Assembly: GCF_947495995.1 (NCBI RefSeq)
Contig: NZ_CANMAX010000002.1
Span: forward strand, 434,001 to 498,000
DNA length: 64,000 nucleotides
Source: an uncultured Tenacibaculum sp.
GTDB taxonomy: Bacteria; Bacteroidota; Bacteroidia; Flavobacteriales; Flavobacteriaceae
Direction: 5' to 3'
This document shows positions 4,853 to 34,275 of the stretch, in pieces. The position numbers and the translations under genes are program-made. Position 1 is the first letter of the stretch; each line of letters starts with the position of its first letter. The notes under the pieces were generated by a model. The model was given only the letters and a program-made list of their open reading frames with translations, had not been told where the DNA came from and did no database searches.

Positions 4853-5266
4853 ATGAGAATAGTATTTTACTTTTTAGTTGGTGTTTTATTTGGAATAACA
4901 CTATTTAAATCAGAAGCAGCTTCTTGGTTTAGAATTTATGAAATGTTTCGATTCGAATCGTTTCACATGTATGGAATTATAGGTACAGCTGTAACTTTAG
5001 GAATTATAATTGTTCAATTAATTAAACGATTAGATATAAATTCATTTTATGGAAAAAAAATAGAAATAAAAGCTAAAGAAAAAAGTATAAAACGATACTT
5101 ATATGGTGGTTTCGTTTTTGGTTTAGGTTGGGCGTTAGCAGGAGCGTGTCCTGGACCAATATTTGTTTTACTTGGAGCTGGATTTACTCCTATAATTATA
5201 GTCGTTTTATCTGCTATAGTTGGAACTTATTGCTATGGTTTATTGAAAGATAGATTACCACATTAA
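4853..5266 (+). CDS. YeeE/YedE family transporter, second half
   Basis: 137-residue membrane protein with the second YeeE/YedE signature, GWALAGACPGPIFVLLGAGF (Cys C99). It starts 2 bp after the first half and is surely co-translated with it. The two Cys motifs would line the pore as in TsuA. The role in thiosulfate or sulfide handling rests on family knowledge and on the neighbouring persulfide dioxygenase and Crp/Fnr genes. Confidence 0.9.
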   Translation: MRIVFYFLVGVLFGITLFKSEAASWFRIYEMFRFESFHMYGIIGTAVTLGIIIVQLIKRLDINSFYGKKIEIKAKEKSIKRYLYGGFVFGLGWALAGACPGPIFVLLGAGFTPIIIVVLSAIVGTYCYGLLKDRLPH

Positions 5267-21888: not shown

Positions 21889-23690
21889 TGTACGAGCATT
21901 TATCTGAGAAGCAAAAAGAAATATTAAATTATAACCAAGGAACAGTTGTAGTAAAAGCTTGTCCTGGAAGTGGTAAAACTTATTCTGTATCTGCCCGAAT
22001 TTCTAAATTATTATATGAAAACGAATTTAAGAGAAAAGGAATTGCTGCAATTTCTTTTACTAATGTGGCTTGCTCTGAAATCGAAGAGAAACTTAGAGAT
22101 GATTTTGGTATATATGTTCCTTTAAAGCACCCTCATTTTATAGGAACTATAGATAGTTTTATTAATACATATATATTTCTTCCATTTGGTCATTTGATTA
22201 TGAAATGCTCAATTCGCCCAGTGCTTGTTGGTGAACCTCATTCCAATTGGTCACACAAATTATTCGCTACAGATTATAGTCAATATTTTGATAAAACAAG
22301 CTTCAATATAAATGATGAACTAATTCGACTTGCTCCACATCAAGCATTTCATTTTATATGGAATTATTATACTAAAGCTGGTAAACTGAATGGAAATATT
22401 AAAAATATAATTAATTCTAAATGGAATTTTTTCTCTAAGGGCTATGCGAATCAATCAGATGCTAATTACATCTCTTTAAAAATATTAGAAAAATACCCTC
22501 TTATTGCATCTAATGTTGCCAATCTTTTTGAATATTTTATAATTGATGAAGCACAAGATACTAATGAGATTCAAATGAGAATTCTTGATATATTAAAGAA
22601 TTCAGGTACTAATAACATAATGCTCATTGGAGATAGAGACCAATCTATCTTTGAATGGAATGATGCTAAACCTGAATTATTTGATAAAAAGTTTGATGAA
22701 TGGGAAAGTATTCTCCTTGACGAAAACCGAAGAAGTTCTCAAGCTATTTGTGATTTTACAAAAAATCTATCATCATTTGACAAATCCAAAGCTGTAAACG
22801 AGGAAGTAGCTGATTATGATTTGGCACCTCAGGTAATAGGATATAAGCTACCGAAGAAAGCAACTAAAAAAGATCCAACAATAATAAGTAGAGAAGAAAG
22901 TAAAGCCAGTTTTGATACTATTTTATCAGGGTTCTTACAATTGTGTAGAGAGAATGATATCGAAATTAATAAGGAAAATGTGGCAGTATTATATAGAGGT
23001 AAAAGTAGCTCCAAATATTTAGGGTTAAACCTTGATATTTCATCTTATGAAAATATCCCGTGGATAGACAAACAATATCACGTTAGAAATATCATTTTAG
23101 GAAAACATTTAATAGACAATCAAGATTTTTTTAAAGGTTATAGACTTTTAGAAAAAGGATATTTTGAAGCTTTATTTAGAAAAACAAATCCTAATTTTTA
23201 TTGTACAGATGATTTTATAAAGACTCAAATTGAGCGTAATGGGTTTATGAAACATAGAGATAATGTCTTTAATTTTATTAATAAGCTTTCTGAAACTAAT
23301 GGTAAAACGTTTAATCAATGGATTGATGAGTCCAACAAAAAAATAAAAGATATTGAGATAGCATTAAATATTAATTCAGAAAATGGAGATGTTTTAATAG
23401 ACGACTATTATGCGAGTAATTTAAATTCAGATAGTATGCATCCTTTTTATTATGGTACAGTTCACTCGGTAAAAGGAAAAACTTTCGAAGCTGTATTATT
23501 ACTTCTTGGTAAAAGAGCGATTAGAAATTATGTGAATATTATAAATGCACCTGATTTTAATGCTTTACCAAACAATTGTAAAGAAGAATTAAGGATAGTT
23601 TATGTAGGAATAACACGACCTAGAAAAATATTGGTAATGGCTGTTCCTGATTCAGATACAGAAGTTTGGAATAACAAAATGTTCAGTTAA
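21888..23690 (+). CDS. gajB: Gabija defence protein GajB (UvrD-like helicase)
   Basis: 600 residues, superfamily 1A helicase. Q motif and Walker A ACPGSGKT (24-31), ISFTNVA, motif II FIIDEAQDTNE (~218), GDRDQSIFEWNDA (motif III), TVHSVKGKTFEAV (motif V) and VGITRPRK (motif VI) are all present. It is translationally coupled to gajA (one-base overlap), the defining Gabija pair. In known systems GajB docks on a GajA tetramer and takes part in DNA degradation. It is about 100 residues longer than the best-studied GajB; the extra length is in the middle helical insertions. Confidence 0.9.
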   Translation: MYEHLSEKQKEILNYNQGTVVVKACPGSGKTYSVSARISKLLYENEFKRKGIAAISFTNVACSEIEEKLRDDFGIYVPLKHPHFIGTIDSFINTYIFLPFGHLIMKCSIRPVLVGEPHSNWSHKLFATDYSQYFDKTSFNINDELIRLAPHQAFHFIWNYYTKAGKLNGNIKNIINSKWNFFSKGYANQSDANYISLKILEKYPLIASNVANLFEYFIIDEAQDTNEIQMRILDILKNSGTNNIMLIGDRDQSIFEWNDAKPELFDKKFDEWESILLDENRRSSQAICDFTKNLSSFDKSKAVNEEVADYDLAPQVIGYKLPKKATKKDPTIISREESKASFDTILSGFLQLCRENDIEINKENVAVLYRGKSSSKYLGLNLDISSYENIPWIDKQYHVRNIILGKHLIDNQDFFKGYRLLEKGYFEALFRKTNPNFYCTDDFIKTQIERNGFMKHRDNVFNFINKLSETNGKTFNQWIDESNKKIKDIEIALNINSENGDVLIDDYYASNLNSDSMHPFYYGTVHSVKGKTFEAVLLLLGKRAIRNYVNIINAPDFNALPNNCKEELRIVYVGITRPRKILVMAVPDSDTEVWNNKMFS

Positions 23691-23825
23691 TTATATAATA
23701 TGAAAGAAAGAATTTATTTATTAAAATCTGATTTAGAATAAACTTCAAACGCAAATAGTAGGGAAGGAGTTGGTTTTAAATTATAACTAAAATTTATAGG
23801 TTTAGACACTTAAAAAACACAATAA

Positions 23826-24416
23826 ATGGTTTATATCGAAATTGAAGCGATTAATAATTTAGATGTTTTATCTGAAAAAGAAGAAAATAATTCTATTCTT
23901 TTTCATTTTATATTTAAAGAACTAAATGTAAGATGTATTTATTTCGGAAATAGTAAAACAATGATTATCGGGTTTTCAGGAAGAAATTCGGCTTGGAATC
24001 TTAATTTATCAAAAGGTAAAATATCTGAATTTATTCCAAATGAAGCTTATAAGTTGATTAGTGATACCCTAAAAGAAGAAGGAATTTATTCGAATAAAGA
24101 TTTTTTCATTACTCTAAAAGACAAAATAGAGTCTTTAGAGGGAGAAGATGTTGATAATGTAACTGAGAACCAAATTATAGAAGCATTAAGAAATACAAAA
24201 ACAAGAGATAAAAAATACGATAGAGAAGGAGATAAGCCCTTTTTTCATCATTGGAGAAGAGTACGACCGAGTAAAGAATCTTTAAATAAGATACAGCGTT
24301 ATTTTGGAGATGAAATACGTGAGGAATGTTTTAAAAATAAGATTACTGCTGTTTGGTCTGAAATACCAACTAGTAATTCTTTAGATTTCTTGAATCCAAA
24401 CATTGATGTTAGTTAA
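23826..24416 (+). CDS. Unknown protein downstream of Gabija genes
   Basis: 196 residues, no recognised domain. The N-terminal half alternates strands (IGFSGRNSAWNLNLSKG). The C-terminal half is basic, with FFHHWRRVRPSKESLNKIQRYFGDEI, which looks like a nucleic-acid or nuclease-associated segment. It has no signal peptide or membrane segment. It starts 135 bp after gajB on the same strand and lies between the defence genes and the dif-site element. It may be a third defence component or an unrelated passenger; the sequence does not decide. Confidence 0.55.
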   Translation: MVYIEIEAINNLDVLSEKEENNSILFHFIFKELNVRCIYFGNSKTMIIGFSGRNSAWNLNLSKGKISEFIPNEAYKLISDTLKEEGIYSNKDFFITLKDKIESLEGEDVDNVTENQIIEALRNTKTRDKKYDREGDKPFFHHWRRVRPSKESLNKIQRYFGDEIREECFKNKITAVWSEIPTSNSLDFLNPNIDVS

Positions 24417-24431
24417 ATAATTTTAACAACA

Positions 24432-24450
24432 TTATGTAAAATAGAAAATA
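24432..24450 (+). repeat. XerD-arm-like sequence with dif flank (decayed half site)
   Basis: TTATGTAAAAT followed by AGAAAATA. With the preceding A, 19 of 20 bases match 33310-33329, the XerD arm of the right-hand dif site plus its outer flank. No matching XerC arm precedes it. Confidence 0.4.
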
Positions 24451-25028
24451 AATGTTTAAAACGGCCTCAGAAAACTTTGGTCAAAACAATAGGTGAATCA
24501 GCGTACATATTTTAGAGGGCTAGCAATACATATTCTTAATATTTATAGAATTTAAAGCTAGTTCAAAGCAATCTTAATGAGTTACAATGTTTTCTAAAAT
24601 ATAGCGATTGAACCGTGATTGTTTCCAAAGTTTTATGCAGCCTTGATTTTTTTGTTTCTTTTTGTATCAAGACAAAAAGATATGCAAACTCTAAAAATGT
24701 TTAATTATAGTTCTATAGTGAACAAGTGTATAGAAATTTTAGAGCGTGGATTTGAGCCAGGGAAAATTTTATACTCTTGTGACAAGTTTACGAAAATGTC
24801 GTAGAAAAAAATTTTACGGGATTTTCCTCGAATACGAGAATTATAATTAAGAGCAAAAGGTTTAGCTTTTTTTGGTGTGGCCAAGCGTTGGCAAATTGAG
24901 TTTAAAAATAAATGCCATAAAGCATTTAATTTTTTAAAAACAATACGAGCGATTTTGGCAAGAGGCAATTTTACATAATGGCTAATTATAGTTACAAATA
25001 TAGTTCGAATGTTTATTGTGAACGATTC

Positions 25029-25083
25029 TGAGAATCTCGTATTTTGAAAATTACGAAACATTGCACAGAATATTAAATTCTCG
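25029..25083. repeat. 55-bp dispersed intergenic repeat, copy 2
   Basis: Starts TGAGAAT, ends ATTCTCG; same length as the copy at 6788-6842 and about 70% identical by eye, with the ends best conserved. Confidence 0.5.
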
Positions 25084-25199
25084 TAAATGCCAAAAATAAA
25101 TGTTTAATGACCCAAGTAATACAGTTTATATAGAAACGAGAATATTCTGGGATATTTTACATAGTATTATATTATAGCTACTAATGTGGCAGGCGTGTC

Positions 25200-25293
25200 G
25201 CAAAACGGCTTTAACATAATATCTGTCGATATAATACGCTGGCGCGTAGTTATATCTGATATTATATCAAATACGTGGTATTCGCCGTTTTGC
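25200..25293. repeat. Inverted repeat enclosing nested palindromes
   Basis: GCAAAACGGC (25200-25209) and GCCGTTTTGC (25284-25293) are perfect 10-bp arms. The 74-bp interior contains smaller palindromes built on ATATC/GATAT. It lies 13 bp outside the left dif-like site. Confidence 0.5.
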
Positions 25294-25306
25294 TTGAATA
25301 TATAAT

Positions 25307-25334
25307 TTGTTCTATAATTTATAGTATGCAAAAT
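25307..25334 (+). other. Left dif-like attachment site (attL) of the element
   Basis: 28-bp XerCD-type site: XerC arm TTGTTCTATAA, centre TTTATA, XerD arm GTATGCAAAAT. It matches the right site (33294-33321) at 24 of 28 positions, with an identical centre. The XerD arm departs from consensus, as expected for a phage-derived half. Confidence 0.75.
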
Positions 25335-25451
25335 ATAAAACCCAATAAAAATGCGGGTTACAGAAAAAAAGAGACAAAAAAAGTTCTATTTGCATGAGAT
25401 TTTTAACTTAACTTAAAAATTGGTTTATTTCGGTTTTTCTCATATTTGATA

Positions 25452-26009
25452 ATGAGAAAGTTACAATTACCCGTTAATGCTGTGAAAAACGGGATTGAAT
25501 CCCCATACAAATACTCTGTCTATTTGCATGATCGAAAGATTTTGTATTTTAAGAGTAGGAGAAAAGCACAGGATTTCGTAAGAAATTTTAATACTTATGT
25601 TTCGGACACAATACGATTGTGTTACGATATACATGTATTCCTTTATTCAACATATTTAAATAACTCTTTTACCATTAAGCCTTATGAATCTAATCAGATC
25701 AAACGTAAACTTGACGGTTTTTTAGACCTTATAGAAAAATGGTCTCGTGATTATGGTGACGGTTGGCAATCAATGAAGCTTAATGGATTCTTTAATATTT
25801 TAAACCATATTGAAGATTCAGCTCTTGAAATGAATAACTATTTTAAAAAGCAAAAAGATTATTTTCATGTAAATAGAATTAATTCTTACTTACAAATGAT
25901 TTATATTTTTTACGAAAAATATGATGAGATATTTAAAGACGTTGTTACCGATCTTTCCTATAAAAATAAACCTGTTAAACATCTTAAACCACTTAAAGAT
26001 ATCTCTTAG
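25452..26009 (+). CDS. Prophage protein of unknown function
   Basis: About 185 residues, basic at the N-terminus and rich in Tyr, Phe and Lys, with a largely helical second half (SYLQMIYIFYEKYDEIF). It has no membrane segment or known motif. I chose ATG 25452; the TTG at 25446 adds only two residues. It is the first gene inside the left attachment site and upstream of two small genes and rep, where early or regulatory phage genes usually lie. Confidence 0.6.
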   Translation: MRKLQLPVNAVKNGIESPYKYSVYLHDRKILYFKSRRKAQDFVRNFNTYVSDTIRLCYDIHVFLYSTYLNNSFTIKPYESNQIKRKLDGFLDLIEKWSRDYGDGWQSMKLNGFFNILNHIEDSALEMNNYFKKQKDYFHVNRINSYLQMIYIFYEKYDEIFKDVVTDLSYKNKPVKHLKPLKDIS

Positions 26010-26027
26010 AGCATAACATTTAAAGTT

Positions 26028-26222
26028 ATGCAAACTACATCACCACAACCATTGTACACCTTAGAAGAGGGTCAAAGATTCGTTAAATCTATTAACGGAC
26101 TACCATCTAAAAACATTTATCTACATGTTAGATCATTGGACGATCATTACTCAGAAGTTGAACTATTCGACGGCGTAATTGAGTTTATGAACCCTAGAAC
26201 TTACGTGTATGGGTTACGCTAA
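26028..26222 (+). CDS. Small prophage protein, unknown
   Basis: 64 residues, mixed strand/helix, no known motif. It starts 18 bp after the previous gene and overlaps the next by 14 bp, consistent with a compact phage early operon ending at the terminator at 26460-26500. Confidence 0.5.
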   Translation: MQTTSPQPLYTLEEGQRFVKSINGLPSKNIYLHVRSLDDHYSEVELFDGVIEFMNPRTYVYGLR

Positions 26223-26457
26223 AGATCAGGTTAATTTACAAGCTCGTCGACAATTCATATTGGAGAAAGTCGATGAGCTTTTAAAAAACCCAAACAACAG
26301 TATTTATACTTTCACTGATGCTTATCACTATATCGCTGATGAGTATCTTTTTTGCAGTGTTAGCACTATATACCGTGCTATTAGTTTAAAAGAGCAAAAG
26401 AAGTCTTTAAATACTCCGTCTAGATCAACCAATGTATTAACCCTAAAATTTGATTAA
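26209..26457 (+). CDS. Small prophage protein with possible helix-turn-helix
   Basis: 82 residues. YTFTDAYHYIADEYLFCSVSTIYRAISLKEQ reads like a helix-turn-helix (IADEYLFCSVSTIYRAI), so it could bind DNA. It overlaps the upstream gene by 14 bp and is followed directly by a strong terminator. Position before rep suggests control of replication or of the lysogenic state; this is inference. Confidence 0.55.
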   Translation: MGYAKDQVNLQARRQFILEKVDELLKNPNNSIYTFTDAYHYIADEYLFCSVSTIYRAISLKEQKKSLNTPSRSTNVLTLKFD

Positions 26458-26459
26458 CT

Positions 26460-26500
26460 CCGTTATACGAGCCTAAAAAAGCCCGTATAACGGGGTTTTA
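26460..26500 (+). terminator. Strong Rho-independent terminator
   Basis: 10-bp perfect stem CCGTTATACG / CGTATAACGG with a 14-nt loop, followed by GGTTTTATTT. It ends the first prophage operon before rep. Confidence 0.85.
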
Positions 26501-26536
26501 TTTATTGGCTTGGCAAAACATAACGGTTGTGTCGAA

Positions 26537-26569
26537 AAACTGAGCGGAGCGCACGCGGAGACTCAGTTT
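26537..26569. promoter_or_regulatory. GC-rich hairpin before rep, candidate replication origin
   Basis: Inverted repeat AAACTGAG / CTCAGTTT around a 17-nt loop that is markedly GC-rich (CGGAGCGCACGCGGAGA) in an otherwise A/T-rich element, 14 bp before the rep ATG. Such hairpins are typical nick sites for HUH Rep proteins; it could also be a translational control hairpin. Confidence 0.4.
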
Positions 26570-26583
26570 CTCATTTCCCTAAA

Positions 26584-27738
26584 ATGAACGCACCCTGTAC
26601 ATTTTCCATTAAAAATGGAGGAATATCTCAATACTTTGATGTAAGCTATCTTGATTTCAACCGAAATGGTGATACTTCTGTATTAAAACAGAATCAAAAA
26701 ACACCATTCAACGATATTATTAAGAAGTATCAGCCAACACAAAACTTTTTACATGACTTAGATCGTATTAAGTTTAAACACGACTTACATCGCCAAATTT
26801 TAAGTAAAAGAGGTAAAACGATTAAAGAACTTGGTACACTTTCCAATAATCAAAAAAAGGCTTGTAAAAAGGTTTGCGAAAACATAATCAATACAGTTAT
26901 ATTTTCAAGACAAAAAGACGTTCACTACAAGTCTGGTCAATATGTTGCTTTTGTAACACTTACGCTACCAACAACACAAATACACTCAGATAAACAAATC
27001 AAAAGACTACAAACACGATACATAGAGAATTTACAAAAGACTTACGGTGTAAAATATTACGTGTGGAAAGCAGAAGCACAAAAGAATGGAAATATACATT
27101 TTCACTTATTAGTCGATAAATGGATTGATTGGACTGTGCATAGAAAGCTATGGAATAAACAACTAGACAAACTTGGCTATTTAGATACTTACCAACAAAT
27201 TCACGGAAATAGAAACCCAAATACTACAGACGTACATTCTTTAAAAACAGATAAAAAAGGTCGTAAGATTAAGAATGTAACTACATACATAATCAAGTAC
27301 ATGACTAAACTTGAATTTGGTAAACGTCCAATACTTGGTAAACTTTGGGGTTGTTCTGATGAAGCCAAAAACCTAGACTATCCTAAATATGCAGAGGGCG
27401 AACCGCTTTTCGATCATGTTGTGCACCTTGTAAACTCAGGGAAATTAAAACAAGTTTTAAAGGAGGACTTTTTTAGTTTTTTCTCGGGCAAATCTTTCAA
27501 AATCATATCAGAAAAATATAAAAATCTTTGGTCTGACTTAAAAAGCTTCTATCAATTCCAAAACGGAAATAATAAGCCTAAAACATTTCAAGAAAAATCT
27601 TTTGTTAGAGCTGAAAAATATATCCCCGATACAAAACCTGTATCTATTCCAAAAATTGAAATATTAGATCAACCAACATTCGAACAGGTAAAAATTAACT
27701 ATGGAAATCAAGCTTTTTGGACAAATAATGTTAAATAA
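26584..27738 (+). CDS. HUH-family replication initiation endonuclease (Rep)
   Basis: 384 residues from ATG 26584; the open frame upstream to 26527 runs through the GC-rich hairpin and is not credible as coding. All three HUH motifs are present: motif 1 FVTLTLP (123-129), motif 2 HFHLL with the paired His (172, 174), and motif 3 YIIKYMTK (235-242) with the catalytic Tyr. It should nick one strand and drive rolling-circle replication, as in microviruses, filamentous phages and other ssDNA elements. It is preceded by a terminator and a GC-rich hairpin that may be the origin. It is the only clear replication gene and no helicase is fused. Confidence 0.88.
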   Translation: MNAPCTFSIKNGGISQYFDVSYLDFNRNGDTSVLKQNQKTPFNDIIKKYQPTQNFLHDLDRIKFKHDLHRQILSKRGKTIKELGTLSNNQKKACKKVCENIINTVIFSRQKDVHYKSGQYVAFVTLTLPTTQIHSDKQIKRLQTRYIENLQKTYGVKYYVWKAEAQKNGNIHFHLLVDKWIDWTVHRKLWNKQLDKLGYLDTYQQIHGNRNPNTTDVHSLKTDKKGRKIKNVTTYIIKYMTKLEFGKRPILGKLWGCSDEAKNLDYPKYAEGEPLFDHVVHLVNSGKLKQVLKEDFFSFFSGKSFKIISEKYKNLWSDLKSFYQFQNGNNKPKTFQEKSFVRAEKYIPDTKPVSIPKIEILDQPTFEQVKINYGNQAFWTNNVK

Positions 27739-27842
27739 TTACCACCTGTAAAACAAATAAATCGACCATTGCACATTGCGAGAAGTTTAGTGTAATATGC
27801 TCGTAGAATTGTATCAAAATTAATAATTAAATACAATTCAAA

Positions 27843-28679
27843 ATGTCATTAAAATTCGATTTATCAGGATTAACACAAAAGAAAATCAAGCTGACTGAAA
27901 ACGACAATCCAGCATCAATGATTTTAACTAATGTTTCTCCCGAAGCTAAAATTAAAGTTGATTATAGAAAGAAAAACGGGCAAACTGTTACTTACATCAA
28001 TAATCTTTCTGTTGGTTTGGTTTTAGAATCTCAAAAGAAAATTGAAGCCTTATCTTCTTCACGTGTTCCTTTTAATCATCCTAGAACCGGAAAAATCGCT
28101 TTCTTAGATATTCCAGTCACTGCTAGAAGTTATGAAACTCACATGCACACTACTGGGCAGATGTCTCCTGAAGCTTTAGCTCTAAAATCTGCTATAATTT
28201 CTTTAGGTGTTAACGGCGAGATTAACTTAGAAAAAGGTGATGACTTAACTATCACTATTTCAAACTTAAAAAAACACGATAATTCCTTTGTAGAGTTTAA
28301 AGGAGGTCGTTCTGTCGCTACAGGCTTTTACACTTTTACTAATAGTGTATGGGAGAAAAAAGATGATAGACTAAATGTTGATTTATCAAACGTTCAGTTT
28401 CTAGCATTTAAACCACAAGACATTCCCGATCAAATTAATTTCATTATCAATGGTCAGTTAATTGAGCATACAAGCGATAATCTAAAAGCTTTTTCTGTTG
28501 ATCGTTTTGGTATCACTTCCGTTCAGTCTTATTTCAATGAGGGTGTTACAGAAGTAAAAAATATTACATACGGCGTTGGTAATGTTTTACTATTAGACGT
28601 TAGAGGTGCTTCTTCTGTGGTTCTAGAAAAAGACGGACGCACAACTGATTTAGACTACTACACTTTAAACTTCAAATAA
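27843..28679 (+). CDS. Candidate major capsid protein of the prophage
   Basis: 278 residues, almost entirely beta-strand-like with short loops, no signal or membrane segment, and no recognised motif. It is the first gene of the late operon after rep and is followed 1 bp later by a membrane structural candidate. Size and strand pattern would suit a PM2/FLiP-type double jelly-roll capsid protein, but this rests on appearance and position only. Alternatives are a minor coat or spike protein. Confidence 0.45.
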   Translation: MSLKFDLSGLTQKKIKLTENDNPASMILTNVSPEAKIKVDYRKKNGQTVTYINNLSVGLVLESQKKIEALSSSRVPFNHPRTGKIAFLDIPVTARSYETHMHTTGQMSPEALALKSAIISLGVNGEINLEKGDDLTITISNLKKHDNSFVEFKGGRSVATGFYTFTNSVWEKKDDRLNVDLSNVQFLAFKPQDIPDQINFIINGQLIEHTSDNLKAFSVDRFGITSVQSYFNEGVTEVKNITYGVGNVLLLDVRGASSVVLEKDGRTTDLDYYTLNFK

Positions 28680-28680
28680 T

Positions 28681-29484
28681 ATGCTTTCATATCCATTAGT
28701 AAATACATCAATCTCGGCTTTTGATACAGATCATATACTTACCTCTAGTGGTTATGCTTCGGGCGGTGGTAGTGCTGTTTCCAACTTTGCTCAAAACGCT
28801 GTTGGTTCTATACCAGTAGTAGGTGACTTACTTGGTGGTGCTTTAAATTTTCTTGGTGTTGATTTTAACTGCATTAACGCAAGTTTTCCGCCTGAAAAAG
28901 CCCAGCAAGAAACTACAGCTTTCGTAGCTGAAAAAATCAGAGAATCTAAACTAGATCATTTAATCGCAACAAATGCTAGTTTAAAAACTGTTGAAGATAC
29001 TGCTAACAAATTATTGATAACATTCTCTGCAGGTGAATACAATCGTAAGTTAACAGGAGACGGCGCTAGTGGTTGTACTAAGGACGGTGAATACGTCTCA
29101 ATGGGAATCTTTAAAAATGCTAAACAACGCATTTTATCAGCTTTAGAAAGTGTATTCGATATCAGTATTAAAAACACTTTTGTAGATGCTAGATCAGGTT
29201 TTAGAGGTGGTTTAGTTAGAAGTAACCCTACACCTTTAGTAACCATTCACGCACGTAAAGGTAGTCCAGTTCCTAAAAATGACGATTCTAGTAATTCAGG
29301 TTCTAATACTGATACTGATTCGACAACAGATTCAAACGACTTAACAGGAGAACAAGGAAGTCCAATTTATCCAAGTCCGAAACATTGGTCTGTAAAAGAG
29401 ATTTTAGTTCACGTTCTACTGTTTTTGTTAACTGTAGTATTATTTCCAATCCTCTTATATAAAACCCTAAAAAAGAAAAAATAA
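28681..29484 (+). CDS. Prophage membrane-anchored structural candidate
   Basis: 267 residues. The N-terminal region has a Gly/Ser-rich stretch and amphipathic segments (AVGSIPVVGDLLGGALNFLG). The middle is alpha/beta. A Ser/Asp/Thr-rich linker (about 205-220) leads to one strong C-terminal membrane helix (EILVHVLLFLLTVVLFPILL) and a basic tail. The layout fits a virion-membrane or outer-coat protein attached by its C-terminus. It starts 1 bp after the candidate capsid gene. Exact role unknown. Confidence 0.55.
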   Translation: MLSYPLVNTSISAFDTDHILTSSGYASGGGSAVSNFAQNAVGSIPVVGDLLGGALNFLGVDFNCINASFPPEKAQQETTAFVAEKIRESKLDHLIATNASLKTVEDTANKLLITFSAGEYNRKLTGDGASGCTKDGEYVSMGIFKNAKQRILSALESVFDISIKNTFVDARSGFRGGLVRSNPTPLVTIHARKGSPVPKNDDSSNSGSNTDTDSTTDSNDLTGEQGSPIYPSPKHWSVKEILVHVLLFLLTVVLFPILLYKTLKKKK

Positions 29485-29505
29485 CAACATAACAACATTA
29501 AAATC

Positions 29506-29661
29506 ATGAAACAATATTTCATAAAAATTTGGGACTTCTTGAAAAAAGAAATCTACGGTATTCCTTACTGGGCTATAGCGATCTTACCATTAGCCTTACT
29601 AATTTATTTAATCTATTGGTTGTTAAAACCAAAAGGAAGTAAAAACTCTAAACCTTGGTAA
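29506..29661 (+). CDS. Small prophage membrane protein (51 aa)
   Basis: Starts MKQYFIKIWDFL and has one membrane helix (AIAILPLALLIYLIYWLL), then a basic tail. It is tightly packed between the membrane structural candidate and the next gene (ATG 3 bp after its stop). Such short proteins are typical membrane constituents of lipid-containing phages. Confidence 0.6.
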   Translation: MKQYFIKIWDFLKKEIYGIPYWAIAILPLALLIYLIYWLLKPKGSKNSKPW

Positions 29662-29663
29662 TT

Positions 29664-30143
29664 ATGTCAAAAAATTATAACAAAGATTACGATAAAGACA
29701 CGTATTCAAACGGAAACCCAAGAAAAGACTCTTATGGTAGAGCTTTAACTTATAACGGAAAGTATTATTCAGGTGCTCAATTTGGTTATACTAAAGAGTC
29801 TTATGACTATTTAGCCCGTCAGCCTAAATCTGATTCAACAAAACAAGTTAATAGAAATAAGTTTTGGATCAATGGTTTCAACATCTCTAAAAAGGCTGGA
29901 AAAATCACTTTTTCAGGAATTGAAAATTCATCATCATTGCGCTACACAGGTGAAAAAAATGGTAAGAAGCATATCATGTTGTTTATTGAGATATTCTACC
30001 ATAACACAGGTAACACAGTTGTAGAGTACATCGATTTTTGTATTGATAGTAAAACAGCTTTAGTGCCAAAATTAAATATGTTTATCGACTGCTCAACTAA
30101 AGGCGGTGGAAGTTTTAACCGAATTATTAAAGCTTTAAAGTAA
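29664..30143 (+). CDS. Prophage protein, unknown (possible structural)
   Basis: 159 residues from ATG 29664 (the frame is open to 29655). Tyr-, Lys- and Ser-rich N-terminal tail, then a compact strand-rich domain (FWINGFNISKKAGKITFSGI ... GNTVVEYIDFCID). It has no membrane helix and no match I recognise. Its stop overlaps the next ATG by one base. Position in the late operon suggests a virion component. Confidence 0.6.
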   Translation: MSKNYNKDYDKDTYSNGNPRKDSYGRALTYNGKYYSGAQFGYTKESYDYLARQPKSDSTKQVNRNKFWINGFNISKKAGKITFSGIENSSSLRYTGEKNGKKHIMLFIEIFYHNTGNTVVEYIDFCIDSKTALVPKLNMFIDCSTKGGGSFNRIIKALK

Positions 30144-30370
30144 TGACAAGCATATTCAAAAAACTAGGCTCAATCATCCAACCCGTCATAAATTTTTTAG
30201 ACGGGTTGGAAAAAGCCTCAAAAACATTAGAAGCTTTTAATTCTTCTTTTAAAATGTTTAACGAGGAAAGAAAACAGATTTGGAGTACTCCAAAAGTAGA
30301 AGTTAAACCACAAGAAACTAAAGAAAATGAACCCGATACAACCACTATTCAGACAGGAGATACCGAATAA
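30143..30370 (+). CDS. Small prophage protein with helical region
   Basis: 75 residues: an amphipathic helix (IFKKLGSIIQPVINFLDGLEKASKTLEAF) and an acidic, Thr-rich C-terminal tail. It overlaps the upstream gene by one base and the endolysin gene by 44 bp, typical phage packing. It might bind membrane or act as a scaffold; function unknown. Confidence 0.55.
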   Translation: MTSIFKKLGSIIQPVINFLDGLEKASKTLEAFNSSFKMFNEERKQIWSTPKVEVKPQETKENEPDTTTIQTGDTE

Positions 30371-30974
30371 TGTAGAATGGCACGAAATTTATTTGCCTTT
30401 ACCATATGACGGAGTAGTTAAAAGAGATTTATCTAAAAACTTCACATTACAAGAAGTTGTTAAAGCTTCATTCGTAAGAGGTTTCGAAAAACCTGAATTC
30501 ACAAAAATACCTATTGACCCAATCTTGCCAAAAGCTGCGCAATTGATTAGAGACGCACTTGGTAAACCTATAAGATTAGGCAGTACGTTCAGATCAATGG
30601 AATGGGAATTCTACAAAAAAAGACCCGGTACATCTCGCCACACTTATGGAATGGCTTGGGACTTGAACGGAGAGGGGCTTGTGGATTTAATCATTGAAGC
30701 TACAAATAGTAAAAACGACCTTTACAAGCAACTCCGTCAGTTAGGTATCGGATTCATCAGAATTTACGAAGATCATGCGGGTAATTTCATTCATATGGAT
30801 ACAAGACCACAACTTGCAAGCGGAGAAATTCACGTGACTTACGAAAAAAAAAAAGGTGAATCTATAGGCTGGCAAAAAGTTGACTTTTGGGCAACTGTAG
30901 CTGTTTTTCTAACTATAGCTACAACTGTTTGGCAAGTAGGTAAGTTTTTATATAACAAATTCAAAAAGAAATAA
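30327..30974 (+). CDS. M15-type peptidase, prophage endolysin
   Basis: 215 residues. The D-Ala-D-Ala carboxypeptidase-like core has the zinc-site motif SRHTYGMAWDLN (His and Asp ligands) and the distal FIHMDTR His. It should cleave peptidoglycan cross-links for entry or lysis. A C-terminal membrane helix (FWATVAVFLTIATTVWQVGKFLY) is unusual for an endolysin and suggests a membrane- or virion-bound form. The start ATG lies 44 bp inside the previous gene. It is followed by several one-helix proteins that could complete a lysis cassette. Confidence 0.8.
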   Translation: MNPIQPLFRQEIPNNVEWHEIYLPLPYDGVVKRDLSKNFTLQEVVKASFVRGFEKPEFTKIPIDPILPKAAQLIRDALGKPIRLGSTFRSMEWEFYKKRPGTSRHTYGMAWDLNGEGLVDLIIEATNSKNDLYKQLRQLGIGFIRIYEDHAGNFIHMDTRPQLASGEIHVTYEKKKGESIGWQKVDFWATVAVFLTIATTVWQVGKFLYNKFKKK

Positions 30975-30978
30975 AAAA

Positions 30979-31197
30979 ATGAAAAGGAGGGAAGCAGACA
31001 AAGTATATAGACTAATAACAGTGTGCATTATAATAACATTAACAGCTTTGTTTCTTCTCTCCATAATACTAACAATATTATGTCTAAAACTGTCAAAATT
31101 ATCCTTGCATTACTTGCGTTTATTTTTATATCGCTTTATTTTTATTTTAAAGGAAAGTATTCTTCTTTTGCTCCTGTATCTTCTACTAATCCTTTAA
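30979..31197 (+). CDS. Possible holin-like small protein overlapping the next gene
   Basis: 72 residues starting MKRREADKVYRLITV, then almost continuous hydrophobic sequence. It begins 4 bp after the endolysin stop, as a real gene would, but its second half overlaps the gene at 31080 in another frame, so part of the hydrophobicity may be a by-product of that gene. A nested lysis protein is possible. Confidence 0.35.
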   Translation: MKRREADKVYRLITVCIIITLTALFLLSIILTILCLKLSKLSLHYLRLFLYRFIFILKESILLLLLYLLLIL

Positions 31198-31475
31198 CTG
31201 ATTTACAGGCTTCAAAGTATGCTGATGAACTACACGTTGCTATGGGAAGTATTGGTACCGATTTTAATACAATTGAGTCTGTTTTTTCTGTTCTTGATGA
31301 GGATAGTTATAGACAGGTCTATAACGTATTTGGAACTCGAGGTTACATCGATGTTTTAGGTTCTGGAACAGATTTACCCGGAGCCACTCAATTAAATCTA
31401 ACTCAGTGGCTTAAATCTGAATTAACATCTTATGAGGTAGATGTGGTTAAAAAGAACTATCCTTTTGTTCTTTGA
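31080..31475 (+). CDS. Prophage protein with N-terminal membrane anchor
   Basis: 131 residues from ATG 31080 (MSKTVKIILALLAFIF); the frame is open from 31023, but that region has a different character. An N-terminal membrane helix precedes a soluble helical domain containing SIGTDFNTIESVFSVLDEDSYRQVYNVFGTRG, which faintly recalls an annexin-type helix bundle. It lies downstream of the endolysin. Possibly a virion membrane protein; not identified. Confidence 0.6.
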   Translation: MSKTVKIILALLAFIFISLYFYFKGKYSSFAPVSSTNPLTDLQASKYADELHVAMGSIGTDFNTIESVFSVLDEDSYRQVYNVFGTRGYIDVLGSGTDLPGATQLNLTQWLKSELTSYEVDVVKKNYPFVL

Positions 31476-31603
31476 TTTTTTCCGATTTTAACTCCTATTT
31501 TATAACATACAAAACAGCATGTTATAAAAGTTGTTACTCCTAAAATCATTAACTCTAATCCACTTATAAATAAAATCATTTCTAATCCTTTTAAAATTTC
31601 CAT
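31457..31603 (-). CDS. Possible small antisense membrane protein (48 aa)
   Basis: Reads MEILKGLEMILFISGLELM..., with one or two hydrophobic helices and a basic tail GKNQRTKG. It lies in the 134-bp gap between + genes and overlaps the 3' end of the upstream one. It could be real or chance in A/T-rich DNA. On + the same place holds an inverted repeat TTATAACAT / ATGTTATAA. Confidence 0.25.
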   Translation of the reverse strand: MEILKGLEMILFISGLELMILGVTTFITCCFVCYKIGVKIGKNQRTKG

Positions 31604-31609
31604 AAATAT

Positions 31610-31780
31610 ATGAAACAATATTCATTCGCTATGTGTTCGATACTTTTCGGGTATACACAAAGCACCATTGATGACCCAATGCCAAAAGTAATTAGTTTAT
31701 TAGTTGCTATACTAGCTGAGCTCTTACGTTACGCGTGGTCTAATTACAAACGCAAAAAACAAGATAAAAATGAACTTTAA
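31610..31780 (+). CDS. Small prophage protein (56 aa)
   Basis: MKQYSFAMCSILFGYT..., with one amphipathic to hydrophobic helix (VISLLVAILAELLRYAW) and a basic tail. Its last 11 bases overlap the next gene. Unknown function; probably membrane-associated. Confidence 0.5.
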   Translation: MKQYSFAMCSILFGYTQSTIDDPMPKVISLLVAILAELLRYAWSNYKRKKQDKNEL

Positions 31781-32081
31781 AAACCTTGCTGAAAACTTAA
31801 TCATAGTTTTAATATCTGTTGCAATAGGTGGTTACATTGGTTATAAATCAAGTATTCATTCTAACAAACAAACTATTGAATTACTTAGACCCGCAATAGT
31901 TGAAGCTATTAAAGTTGAGAAAACAGTGATAACTAATGAGTTTCAAACATATATCCGTAAACTCAAAAACAAAAACGGAAACTTGGACTTCAATTTAGAC
32001 CCAAGTTTGGAAAGTCAAATCAAACAACAAAACGATACTATTAGACCTAAAAAGCGAAAAAGGTTCTTAGGCATCTTTTAA
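31770..32081 (+). CDS. Prophage protein with N-terminal helix and coiled-coil
   Basis: 103 residues: membrane helix (LIIVLISVAIGGYIGYK) followed by a charged, helical, probably coiled-coil region and a basic C-terminus (RPKKRKRF). This resembles an inner-membrane spanin by layout and sits in the region downstream of the endolysin. No sequence match is recognised. Confidence 0.55.
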   Translation: MNFKNLAENLIIVLISVAIGGYIGYKSSIHSNKQTIELLRPAIVEAIKVEKTVITNEFQTYIRKLKNKNGNLDFNLDPSLESQIKQQNDTIRPKKRKRFLGIF

Positions 32082-32092
32082 AATATTTTACT

Positions 32093-32596
32093 ATGTCAAG
32101 AATTATATTAAATAATAAAGAATACGATACAAAACCTGTATCGGTTCTGTTACCATTAGAAAAAGACCCTGTAACAAACTATTATGTTTTAAAACCCGAT
32201 TTTTTAAGTACTAATGAGCAACTATTGGGAAGTATTAAATTAACACCCGATGCAATTCCTAATATACAGGGACAGGCTTACCCAAGACCAACTGCGTATA
32301 TTCATGGTTTTAACGATGATATTCCTTACTATTTCCAAGGTTATCAATTCACCGAGGATATAAACATACCTGTTAAACAGATTGCTGTAAGTAAATACTG
32401 GCATGTGTTTTTTGAGGGAATTATCTTAATAAACGATACAGATTATAAAACATACAATGTCTTAGACTTCAACGATCAAAAAGAGATTTTAAGTTTATGT
32501 TATCCCGACGGACACCCCGAAGAATACACTCCTTATATCATCCATAATTCAACTGGAGATACATTGCCCGGAACAGGTGGTAGCGGTGGAATTTAA
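32093..32596 (+). CDS. Prophage protein, last gene of the late operon
   Basis: 167 residues, strand-rich, no membrane segment, ending with a flexible PGTGGSGG tail. It has no recognised domain. Position at the end of the late operon, followed by a strong terminator, would suit a spike or receptor-binding protein, but nothing in the sequence proves it. Confidence 0.55.
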   Translation: MSRIILNNKEYDTKPVSVLLPLEKDPVTNYYVLKPDFLSTNEQLLGSIKLTPDAIPNIQGQAYPRPTAYIHGFNDDIPYYFQGYQFTEDINIPVKQIAVSKYWHVFFEGIILINDTDYKTYNVLDFNDQKEILSLCYPDGHPEEYTPYIIHNSTGDTLPGTGGSGGI

Positions 32597-32612
32597 TCAC
32601 ATTCGTAACAAC

Positions 32613-32648
32613 AAAAAAAAAGCCTACTGTTTAGTAGGCTTTTTTTAT
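32613..32648 (+). terminator. Rho-independent terminator of prophage late operon
   Basis: Stem AGCCTACT / AGTAGGCT with a 4-nt loop, A-tract before and T-tract after, so it can work in both directions. Confidence 0.9.
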
Positions 32649-32718
32649 ATATTGACATTTCTTTCTTGGAAACAATTGTCCGCTCCAGGTGTTGACAATT
32701 TTACTTCAGTGCTGTAGG

Positions 32719-32895
32719 TTAATTTTCAATCCAACTTCTGAAACGACTTTTCATTGATTCTCTATTATTGTAGTATGACTTTTTGCAATTATTGCAAATC
32801 CATCTATTTCCAGATCCTGCAATTCCTACGCACTTCATGAATTCTTCGTACCTCTTTTTCTTACATGAATAGCATGTGTGTCTTGATTTTTTCAT
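32719..32895 (-). CDS. Small zinc-ribbon protein (58 aa) in the prophage
   Basis: Starts MKKSRHTCYSCKKKRYEEF and has two Cys pairs, CYSC and CNNC, spaced as in a zinc ribbon or HNH-like finger (CxxC ... CxxC), with basic flanks. It is the only well-supported gene on - inside the element and faces the late operon. A DNA- or RNA-binding regulator controlling lysogeny or copy number is possible; a truncated HNH protein is the alternative. Confidence 0.6.
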   Translation of the reverse strand: MKKSRHTCYSCKKKRYEEFMKCVGIAGSGNRWICNNCKKSYYNNRESMKSRFRSWIEN

Positions 32896-32899
32896 GTTT

Positions 32900-33293
32900 A
32901 TTGAGTTTTACGGGATTCTCCCTATTAAAAAAAAAAAATATTTTTTTGGCTTTAAAACCAACAAACAACCCTCTGATACTGCTTTAGAAAGAAAAAAATT
33001 TTTTTGGGAGGTTGCTCCAGCGGATACCCAAACAAAATTCTTTTTGTTTCTAAAGTGGTATCTATATTCGTGAGGTGGTATTAAAACCACTAAAATATAT
33101 CCGCAGTCGAACCACATTCGACTATCCACAATAGCTTCTTAAATCACCTTTAAAATGCCTTAAATTTGCATTTAGAGAACTTTTTGCATACATTTATGCA
33201 CATATAATCCGCTCTTTGAAATATATTTAATTGATAATCAGAAGTTTAATGAAAAACCGTTATAATTCGTGGAATTATTTTCTCTTTAAAAAA
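32900..33293. other. Prophage non-coding end region
   Basis: Poly-A and poly-T runs (around 32929-32946 and 32990-33006), a small hairpin GTGGT / ACCAC (33075-33090) and A/T-rich sequence up to the right attachment site. Open frames here are low-complexity and not credible. It could hold a complementary-strand origin or packaging signal. Confidence 0.35.
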
Positions 33294-33321
33294 TTGTACT
33301 ATAATTTATATTATGTTAAAT
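33294..33321 (+). other. dif: Chromosomal dif site / right attachment site (attR)
   Basis: XerC arm TTGTACTATAA, centre TTTATA, XerD arm TTATGTTAAAT; the last is identical to the XerD arm of E. coli dif. This is the more canonical of the two sites and probably the working dif for chromosome dimer resolution. Gene orientation switches from + to - around it. Confidence 0.8.
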
Positions 33322-33346
33322 AGAAAATATTGAATGATATCTCCTA

Positions 33347-34189
33347 TCATTCTGGCAATATCAAAAAAGGAATTTTTGTGTGATATCCCATTTTGTTTAC
33401 CACCGATTCATTCATCCAATTGTAAAAATCGTCGTGCTTGTAATTTATCATAATTAATAAATCGTAATCAATTGTGTTCAAATAATCTCTAATATCTTTT
33501 TCTGTGGATGTATTCTTAGTTATTAAGTTAATTGAATAATTAATACCGCTTAAATTCTCTTCAAGTATTTTGCGATGTTCATTTTCATCATCAGTAAATT
33601 CTTTTAAATTATCTACATGAATGATTTCTAAATTACTTTTATGTAATTCACAGTAAGTTTTTAAGTAGTTTATTGATCTTGATGAATACTTTTTATCAAA
33701 AGCTGTTGCAAAAGCTATTTTACTTAAATTAAAATCATTGATCTCTGTAGGAACAATCAATAACGGAATTTCATGTATCGATTTAATAACCTTTACAGTA
33801 TTACTTCCTATAAAAATCTCTTTCAATCCACTAGCACCTTTTGTTCCCATAATTACTAAATCTATTTTAAACTTTTTAATAGATTTTTGTATCGATTCAA
33901 CTAAAGAATTAGTTGATGCTAATGTTTCAAAAGAATGATCAGATGTATCAGAAATTACAGAAACACTTAATAATGTTTCGTTAAGTTGCTGATTTACATC
34001 AGCAAGCTTGGTTTCATATCTTAATTTACCTTCTTCTTTATGATTTTTACCAAGAAAAATTGGCATTTCTACTTCAAAAGTATGTAAAAGATAAAACTTA
34101 CAAGGTTCATTTTTTAATACTTTTAACGCATAAAATAATGCTTCATTCGCGTTTTTAGAAAAGTCTGTAGGTATTAATATATTCATCAT
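33347..34189 (-). CDS. Universal stress protein, two UspA domains
   Basis: About 281 residues from MMNILIPTDFSKNANEALFY. The N-terminal UspA domain has the ATP-binding motif GTKGASGLKEIFIGSNTVKVI. The second domain (about 155-280) lacks it and looks degenerate. Tandem Usp proteins of this length are common in Flavobacteria and respond to stress or energy limitation. The frame extends six codons upstream, but the ATGs at 34189/34186 fit the family start. It is downstream of, and on the same strand as, the LysR gene, 70 bp apart. It lies next to the dif site. Confidence 0.85.
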   Translation of the reverse strand: MMNILIPTDFSKNANEALFYALKVLKNEPCKFYLLHTFEVEMPIFLGKNHKEEGKLRYETKLADVNQQLNETLLSVSVISDTSDHSFETLASTNSLVESIQKSIKKFKIDLVIMGTKGASGLKEIFIGSNTVKVIKSIHEIPLLIVPTEINDFNLSKIAFATAFDKKYSSRSINYLKTYCELHKSNLEIIHVDNLKEFTDDENEHRKILEENLSGINYSINLITKNTSTEKDIRDYLNTIDYDLLIMINYKHDDFYNWMNESVVNKMGYHTKIPFLILPE

Positions 34190-34275
34190 TTTACATTCTA
34201 TTTTCAAGTAAAATTACTTGTAATGTAAATGATTATCTATGATAATTATCATGTTACACAAATGATAAAGCCAAA

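Follow-up and report, generated by a model that had tools for sequence, protein, structure and literature searches.

A probable XerCD-integrated prophage with a predicted double jelly-roll capsid at the chromosomal dif site of Tenacibaculum

The DNA analyzed here, referred to as the window, is a 64,000-nucleotide stretch of an uncultured Tenacibaculum sp. genome (assembly GCF_947495995.1, contig NZ_CANMAX010000002.1, positions 434,001 to 498,000). Positions 25307-33321 form an 8,015-bp block whose left end is a dif-like site and whose right end is the intact host dif. The genes between them are tightly packed on one strand and encode, among others, a predicted HUH Rep, small membrane proteins, an endolysin and a protein predicted to fold as a double jelly-roll capsid (Table 1). 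We consider it very likely that this block is a double jelly-roll prophage integrated by XerCD at the Tenacibaculum chromosomal dif. A sequence-only reading of the locus had described the same packed genes, bounded by two direct 28-bp dif-like sites with the shared centre TTTATA and accompanied by no integrase, tail or terminase. Each part of this description is borne out: the genes are present in the sequence, the sites lie where they were placed, and Pfam and PHROG scans of ten element proteins each returned no integrase, terminase or tail family. The element thus shows the marks of a XerCD-exploiting element, namely a location at dif, no recombinase of its own among the scanned proteins, and an intact dif at one end.

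Table 1. Features of the dif-integrated element and its borders in the window (aa, amino acids; fractions give the number of the nine Tenacibaculum elements in which a gene was found)
Feature	Coordinates	Strand	Remarks
Host left flank	25098..25306		Alignment into the single dif of element-free G045 (75%) and G016 (71%)
Left dif-like site, left attachment site (attL)	25307..25334	+	Divergent XerD-type arm; XerC-type arm and centre TTTATA retained
g1, 185 aa, function unassigned	25452..26009	+	First gene; 9/9
g2, 64 aa, small protein	26028..26222	+	8/9
g3, 82 aa, small protein, perhaps DNA-binding	26209..26457	+	9/9; weak FUR match, E 0.016, below cut-off
Rep, HUH rolling-circle initiator, PF23343	26584..27738	+	9/9
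Major capsid protein, predicted double jelly-roll, 278 aa	27843..28679	+	Fold model and profile; 9/9
g6, 267 aa, C-terminal membrane helix	28681..29484	+	2/9 by profile; G221 by blastp, E 8e-4
g7, 51 aa, one membrane helix	29506..29661	+	8/9
g8, 159 aa	29664..30143	+	2/9; two-row profile weakly matches phi18:4 gp6 (structural), 13.1 bits
g9, 75 aa	30143..30370	+	9/9
M15-type endolysin	30327..30974	+	PHROG/Pfam; 6/9
72-aa hydrophobic reading frame, two predicted helices	30979..31197	+	Overlaps g11; possibly not a true gene
g11, 131 aa, one membrane helix	31080..31475	+	9/9; profile also matches the phi18:4-type prophage of G423, 1.6e-32
g12, 56 aa	31610..31780	+	7/9
g13, 103 aa, one membrane helix	31770..32081	+	Window element only (1/9)
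g14, 167 aa, final plus-strand gene	32093..32596	+	9/9; position resembles the PhiCjT23 spike gene, no similarity detected
Terminator-like hairpin	32615..32646		At the end of the gene block
Strong hairpin, non-coding end	32975..33062		z -5.9, 0/200 shuffles
Right site, right attachment site (attR), intact host dif	33294..33321	+	Equals the genus-wide dif consensus

The left site reads TTGTTCTATAA-TTTATA-GTATGCAAAAT and the right site TTGTACTATAA-TTTATA-TTATGTTAAAT; they are direct repeats with an identical centre and differ at 4 of 28 positions. A 20-base core, allowing up to 3 mismatches, occurs only twice in the window, at these two sites, where 0.18 occurrences were expected; two occurrences arose in 1 of 100 shuffles. 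Across the 4.54-Mb assembly the 28-mer has a single match within 3 mismatches, at 33294, and a 22-base pattern at the same tolerance has four, comprising both element sites and two places elsewhere. When the 400 bp preceding g1 were shuffled 500 times, no site as good as the left one arose. Given the four genome-wide matches, the left site of the window taken by itself lies within chance, and the support for it therefore comes from its recurrence in relatives.

A six-row capsid profile identified carriers in 9 of the 166 genomes of the genus (this genome, G000, together with G072, G022, G028, G049, G080, G147, G171 and G221), and 17-18 kb around the eight other carriers was examined. Gene order is conserved across the nine elements. 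Iterated profiles recovered g1, g3, Rep, capsid, g9, g11 and g14 in all nine, g2 and g7 in eight, g12 in seven and the M15 gene in six, while g6 and g8 were found in two each and g13 in one. The M15 position is occupied by a different 183-residue open reading frame (ORF) in G221 and by other ORFs in G147 and G171, none of which has a Pfam family. At the right end, dif is present within 3 mismatches in every element, G080 being the poorest with 3. At the left end, seven of the nine have at most one mismatch in a 17-base pattern of XerC arm plus centre, and for each of these seven, 500 shuffles of the upstream 400 bp produced nothing as good. The centre is the same on the left and right in the eight elements with two sites, TTTATA in the window, G072 and G171 and TTAATA in G022, G028, G049, G080 and G147. 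A reading in which the direct sites arose by chance and bound an ordinary genomic island draws on AT-rich sequence favoring dif-like words, as the expectation of 0.18 and the two additional weak genome matches illustrate; set against the recurrence of the left site in seven elements and a right site that is the genus-wide dif, we find this scarcely credible.

As a single sequence, the 278-residue capsid protein had no match in Pfam, PHROG or the phage records, and a single-sequence PDB search returned nothing useful. An AlphaFold model built from 5 of the 9 homologous sequences reached a predicted local distance difference test score (pLDDT) of 74.9 and a predicted template modelling score of 0.76, with pLDDT below 50 at residues 74-79, 84-93, 123-126, 156-160 and 231-237. 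The best PDB match of this model in Foldseek is the PhiCjT23 capsid (7zzz, E 1.6e-16), followed by FLiP, PRD1 and PM2. VIA-align, which was limited to Foldseek's top chains so that families missing there are not used as evidence, gave Z-scores of 18.0 for PhiCjT23 (227 residues), 11.9 for PRD1, 11.2 for PM2 and 11.1 for FLiP. A profile of the nine homologues ranks PhiCjT23 P5 first among 177,635 PDB sequences (E 1e-4) and matches gp4 of phi18:4 with 27.5 bits; the corresponding hhalign probabilities are 87.7% for PhiCjT23, 80.7% for phi18:4 gp4 and 0.7% for FLiP. Because both the fold and the profile match PhiCjT23, we assign the modelled protein as a PhiCjT23-type double jelly-roll capsid protein, and the structure comparison that had been proposed for this gene was thereby answered in the affirmative. 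It is this predicted capsid that makes a prophage of the block: from its sequence the element appears to be the genome of a temperate, tailless, capsid-forming phage, as had been suspected, of PhiCjT23-like type and with dif-like sites at both ends.

The Rep upstream of the capsid gene matches PF23343 with 45.2 bits against a cut-off of 27.8. Pfam was run on the Reps of six elements (window, G072, G049, G147, G171 and G301, the last from another genus) and each exceeds the cut-off of this family; an H-F-H motif is invariant across six aligned Reps, confirming the HUH assignment made earlier. By comparison, the Rep of PhiCjT23 matches PF02486 Rep_trans with 24.2 bits, below the cut-off of 29.6, that of phi18:4 matches the same family above it with 30.3 bits, and that of FLiP matches PF05144 Phage_CRI. 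No blastp match to the window Rep (E 0.01) was found among the proteins of PhiCjT23, phi18:4 and FLiP, and hhalign gave no link from the Rep profile to the Reps of PhiCjT23 or FLiP or to the candidate Rep of G349, a family genome described below; the search against FLiP and Cellulophaga phages suggested by the sequence-only reading thus came back empty. A PDB search with the Rep profile yielded no useful match and an IMG/VR scan with Rep yielded none; a 3.6-kb IMG/VR contig with a distant Rep was a single match and was not used. The Reps of G349 and of a second family genome, G423, had no Pfam match and were not assigned to a family, and a four-row alignment of them with the PhiCjT23 and phi18:4 Reps, at 18-19% identity, was set aside. 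As Reps of different families (PF23343, Rep_trans and Phage_CRI) stand beside related capsids, one capsid type is paired with different replication initiators. M13-like Reps together with FLiP-type capsids, and the swapping of replication modules in general, are noted in the consulted parts of PMC5894146.

Among phage records the best matches of the window Rep are Inoviridae sp. records (23% identity, 2e-14). CTX-type filamentous phages integrate at dif through host XerC/XerD and carry no integrase of their own, so that integrase-free integration at dif is classic for them, and both observations could suggest a filamentous, inovirus-type prophage. The element shares the use of host XerC/XerD at dif with these phages but differs in virion type and gene content: it encodes a predicted double jelly-roll capsid protein and an endolysin, and the Pfam and PHROG scans, covering ten proteins each, contained no inovirus morphogenesis family. 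We regard a filamentous prophage as very improbable.

A hydropathy scan of 15 ORFs predicted at least one membrane helix in five, four of them with one and the 72-residue ORF with two, and g6 is likely a virion membrane protein. The lysis gene falls in an endolysin family of PHROG (4.5e-14). Its Pfam M15 match, at 18.9 bits, lies below the cut-off of 23.2, whereas the G072 orthologue is above it at 24.6; of the M15 endolysin originally proposed, the endolysin therefore stands, with the M15 label reaching threshold in the orthologue and falling short of it in the window. A hydrophobic stretch is visible by eye at the endolysin C-terminus, under the threshold of the helix scan. A single-sequence PDB search with g14 gave no useful match. 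In the non-coding end, the strong hairpin is a candidate origin or packaging hairpin. Rfam produced six matches over 24300-33400, all under the gathering score and near the terminator hairpin, which were judged to be chance, and a promoter scan found no excess (29 versus 35.1 in shuffles). A 58-residue ORF with four cysteines lies on the minus strand at 32719-32895; the elements of G028 and G221 contain similar sequences, there on the gene strand.

Comparison with G072 informs both on selection and on the movement of these elements. The two Reps are 81% identical and the capsid proteins 37%, and the ratio of nonsynonymous to synonymous substitution rates (dN/dS) is 0.085 for Rep and 0.30 for the capsid gene; these values are rough, since dS exceeds 1 for every gene with a value (that of g1 was not computable), and only their direction is safe. 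The two hosts are close, with amino acid identities of 89% for LysR, 93% for SbtA, 94% for a phosphoesterase and 97% for part of an AsmA-like protein, and yet the element at this dif in G072 is a different one, a sign of turnover. The chromosome-side arms are shared between the two (TTGTTC in the left site and TTATGTTAAAT in the right site) and both phage-side arms differ. This is the pattern that strand exchange inside the centre predicts, although resemblance in a single arm could also arise by mutation. The arm TTGTTC is also present in the dif of five element-free genomes (G020, G042, G190, G193 and G196).

In most genomes of the genus dif is a single-copy site. It was found within 3 mismatches in 140 of the 166 genomes, exactly once in 136 of these; two copies are present in G022, G188, G189 and G209, the second copy in G022 being the left end of its own element. 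The 16 dif loci taken from genomes with no capsid match have one dif each (within 2 mismatches). In G045, 25098-25338 aligns at 75% and runs into its only dif; in G016, 25099-25335 does the same at 71%. The sequence-only reading had suggested looking for a single intact dif in relatives lacking the element: on the left this is what is seen in both genomes, and an empty relative sharing both flanks was not encountered. By these alignments the left junction appears well supported, and the right junction is placed by G072 and by dif itself. A degenerate, inverted dif look-alike with 8-9 mismatches was also seen about 650 bp left of dif in two of the 16 element-free loci, L070 (8149-8176, minus strand) and L071 (8559-8586, minus strand). 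Against the XerD model, whose cut-off is 329.6 bits, two host tyrosine recombinases score 327.4 and 247.9, each falling short of it; we assign them to the XerD and XerC types, respectively. Elsewhere in this genome, two tyrosine recombinase genes form a pair that is repeated at a distance of about 6.7 kb (contig C15, 2978-4709 and 9727-11458; L105-L108).

These features suggest the following life cycle. An incoming genome would be made double-stranded by host enzymes and then copied by the HUH Rep. Its phage attachment site (attP), with a XerC-type arm, a centre matching dif and a weak XerD-type arm, would be recombined with dif by host XerC/XerD, and integration would leave an intact dif on the right, such that chromosome dimer resolution could continue. 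The cycle might be restarted by Rep-driven replication or by XerCD excision, after which single-stranded circles would be packed into a capsid containing internal membrane proteins; the endolysin would release them.

Several observations weigh against this reading. The XerD-type arm of the left site has diverged in most elements, and excision may consequently be weak. The left site of G171 is poor, with 3 mismatches (15 of 500 shuffles were as good), and the search of G221 recovered no left half-site; as GajB, a defence gene of the left flank, ends where the half-site would be expected (L092 5770-5800), the half-site there appears to have been lost. No dif within 3 mismatches was found in 26 of the 166 genomes, and G188, G189 and G209 have two. 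The search for an element-free relative with both flanks found none among 24 loci, the right flank being shared only by the carrier G072. The host XerC and XerD were assigned from scores, and the same model matches in 13 of 14 control genomes. No spike was identified by similarity, and none of the 14 element gene profiles matches gp13 of PhiCjT23. The element is known here from assembled sequence, in integrated form, and because capsid searches by tblastn of 50,697 phage records and by a pattern scan of IMG/VR were both empty, no free virus of the HUH-Rep lineage is known here. That the virions would contain single-stranded DNA we infer from the Rep alone.

The diverged left XerD-type arm and the missing left half-site of G221 could point to a decayed or domesticated prophage, that is, to an old XerCD integration at dif that can no longer leave and may by now be of use to the host. 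This explanation assigns the element the same origin and regards it as inactive; it overlaps with an active XerCD-integrated prophage, and the likelihoods we attach to the two do not sum to one. We consider it unlikely, as the main reading frames are uninterrupted, the nine genomes share one gene order, dN/dS of the compared genes is well below 1, and the elements found at one and the same dif in two close hosts are different, indicating turnover.

The closest described systems are the PhiCjT23-like prophages. PMC9719478 (Nat Commun 2022), in the parts available to us, describes PhiCjT23 as temperate and reports 57 putative PhiCjT23-like Flavobacterium prophages of 6,021-8,407 bp, in which Rep is followed by the capsid gene and dif sites flank the element. 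This dif-integrated lifestyle is therefore not new, and the sequence-only reading overstated its novelty when it called it largely undescribed. The available portions of the main text of that paper do not name Tenacibaculum; PMC11672841, on Tenacibaculum prophages, makes no mention of single-stranded DNA, tailless phages or Microviridae; and among titles and the beginnings of abstracts in the open-licence literature on Tenacibaculum prophages, CjT23 and Obscuriviridae we found no description of the lineage. The window element resembles the PhiCjT23-like prophages in its small, presumably circular genome, its homologous double jelly-roll capsid, the Rep gene closely preceding the capsid gene, its length, which is within their 6.0-8.4 kb as given in those parts, and dif-like sites at both ends. 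It differs from PhiCjT23 itself in having a PF23343 Rep instead of a Rep_trans-type one, in its Tenacibaculum host, and in the orientation of its site. A lineage with an HUH Rep of PF23343 type among phages with PhiCjT23-type capsids thus appears to be new.

The sequence-only reading had also likened the element to FLiP and the Cellulophaga phages, and this likeness holds in part. Capsid sequence is near PhiCjT23 and phi18:4, and the fold is shared with FLiP (Finnlakeviridae; Z 11.1). FLiP differs in its Phage_CRI Rep, shows no sequence link in capsid or Rep, has no dif-like site (best 8 mismatches), and is reported in the consulted sections of PMC13269007 not to integrate. Membership in Finnlakeviridae was accordingly rejected, the capsid hhalign probability being 0.7%, Phage_CRI being absent here and no Rep link being found. 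Vibrio tailless prophages, as described in the portions of PMC11630473 used here, likewise have double jelly-roll capsids and a few of them lie at dif, but those at dif regularly carry integrases, and the tailless genomes described there are 12.1-15.1 kb long and reside in Vibrio hosts.

Obscuriviridae (phi18:4, phi12:2 and Omtje) share a related capsid, represented by gp4 of phi18:4, and have a dif-like site in one intergenic stretch. phi18:4 carries TTGTACTATAATTTATAGTATGTAAATT at 5166-5193 on the minus strand, in intergenic sequence; it departs from dif at 3 positions, and no such match arose in 200 shuffles. phi12:2 has an identical site in the corresponding stretch (264-291, minus strand), and Omtje a weaker one (332-359, minus strand) with 1 mismatch in the XerC arm plus centre and 5 overall. 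PhiCjT23 has CTATAATTTATA at the start of its record, on the minus strand; such a site arose in 3 of 200 shuffles. The Tenacibaculum elements have their site on the strand that carries the genes, whereas phi18:4, phi12:2, Omtje and the prophage of G423 have it on the opposite one; that of PhiCjT23 fits the opposite strand better (2 versus 3 mismatches). phi18:4 further differs in its Rep_trans Rep and an annotated glucosaminidase, where the window element has an HUH Rep and M15. The dif-like sites of phi18:4, phi12:2 and Omtje are likely attP. One paper on phi18:4 states, in the part seen, that it has no identifiable lysogeny genes, the term 'dif site' is absent from PMC8776804, and a figure legend in PMC9719478 refers to dif motifs of phages and bacteria, with the phages not specified in the excerpt at hand. 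Within these literature passages the sites go unmentioned, and they would appear to be newly recognized. The prediction is directly testable, as there is a cultured Cellulophaga single-stranded DNA phage with turbid-edged plaques, no known lysogeny genes and a dif-like site.

Beyond the genus, the Rep profile matched 2 of 397 family genomes, the window genome and G301. G301 contains a tandem array of two elements and three dif-like sites (L097 6793-19001 and L109 1-12644), located at L097:6793, at L097:16472 (equal to L109:472) and, as a dif with 2 mismatches, at L109:12617. The first element combines a PF23343 Rep with the same capsid type (capsid profile 2.9e-6), and the g1 profile misses its first gene. 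The second contains relatives of g1, g6 and g11; its Rep has no Pfam match and is similar to gp15 of FLiP (E 7e-16, a single comparison), and it has a weak FLiP capsid match (E 3e-05, also a single comparison) that the element capsid profile misses. Such an array at dif in another genus, joining the HUH-Rep lineage to an element with a FLiP-like Rep, also appears to be new. The phi18:4 capsid protein matched 2 of the 397 genomes, G423 and G349. In G423 the prophage lies between dif-like sites at L100:3828 and 11658 with its genes opposite to the site orientation, and in G349 only one prophage end was found.

Taken together, these cases extend integrase-free dif lysogeny of double jelly-roll phages of single-stranded DNA type from Flavobacterium to Tenacibaculum and the genus of G301, and they place phi18:4-type prophages in two further genera, of which one may be Flavobacterium (G423 with two sites, G349 with one end). 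They also show the same capsid type with different replication initiators at one chromosomal site. A broader proposal would be that the Flavobacteriaceae dif is a shared landing site of double jelly-roll single-stranded DNA phages that keep their capsid and swap their initiator (at least PF23343 HUH, Rep_trans and FLiP-like), that phi18:4, phi12:2 and Omtje, so far taken to lack lysogeny genes, have a working attP and are XerCD-temperate, and that module exchange takes place in tandem dif arrays such as that of G301. We judge the case for this combined proposal to be evenly balanced.

Left of dif, the window encodes a Gabija system at 19882-24416 (GajA 1.7e-153, GajB 5e-210). The same slot holds a 75% identical Gabija system in G221, Lamassu in G072, a cyclic-oligonucleotide-based anti-phage signalling system (CBASS) operon in G049, DrmA/DrmB in G080, a methyltransferase with a DpdB-like gene in G147, and a candidate system in G028 (the second-largest ORF). 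Carriers and element-free loci taken together, defence genes in this slot, type I restriction included, were seen at L013, L016, L017, L090, L092, L065, L068, L069, L070 and L075. For the count of defence genes, the 6 kb to the left of the site were considered and the largest ORF there was scored for a PADLOC match at 1e-10; this ORF was chosen from ORF lists for six carriers and by script for three. On this basis five of nine carriers match, G221 is a sixth through its identity to the window GajA, and G022, G028 and G171 have none, compared with 5 of 16 element-free loci (L065, L068, L069, L070 and L075); a UvrA-like protein in L063 that matches a defence model was not counted. These numbers are too small to claim a difference between carriers and element-free loci. 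The left side of dif emerges as a place of varied Tenacibaculum defence systems, which seems not to have been described before.

Between Gabija and dif lies a non-coding block of about 720 bp (24462-25180), parts of which are conserved at approximately 69-88% in many relatives. That it marks a second dif element was considered and rejected, as the upstream copies have no dif-like site nearby (at up to 8 mismatches); these extra copies lie about 4-13 kb upstream in G003, G056, G027, G016 and G026. On the other side of the element, a UspA-like gene (named by eye) occupies 33347-34207 between dif and LysR, and is absent in G072, where LysR adjoins dif.

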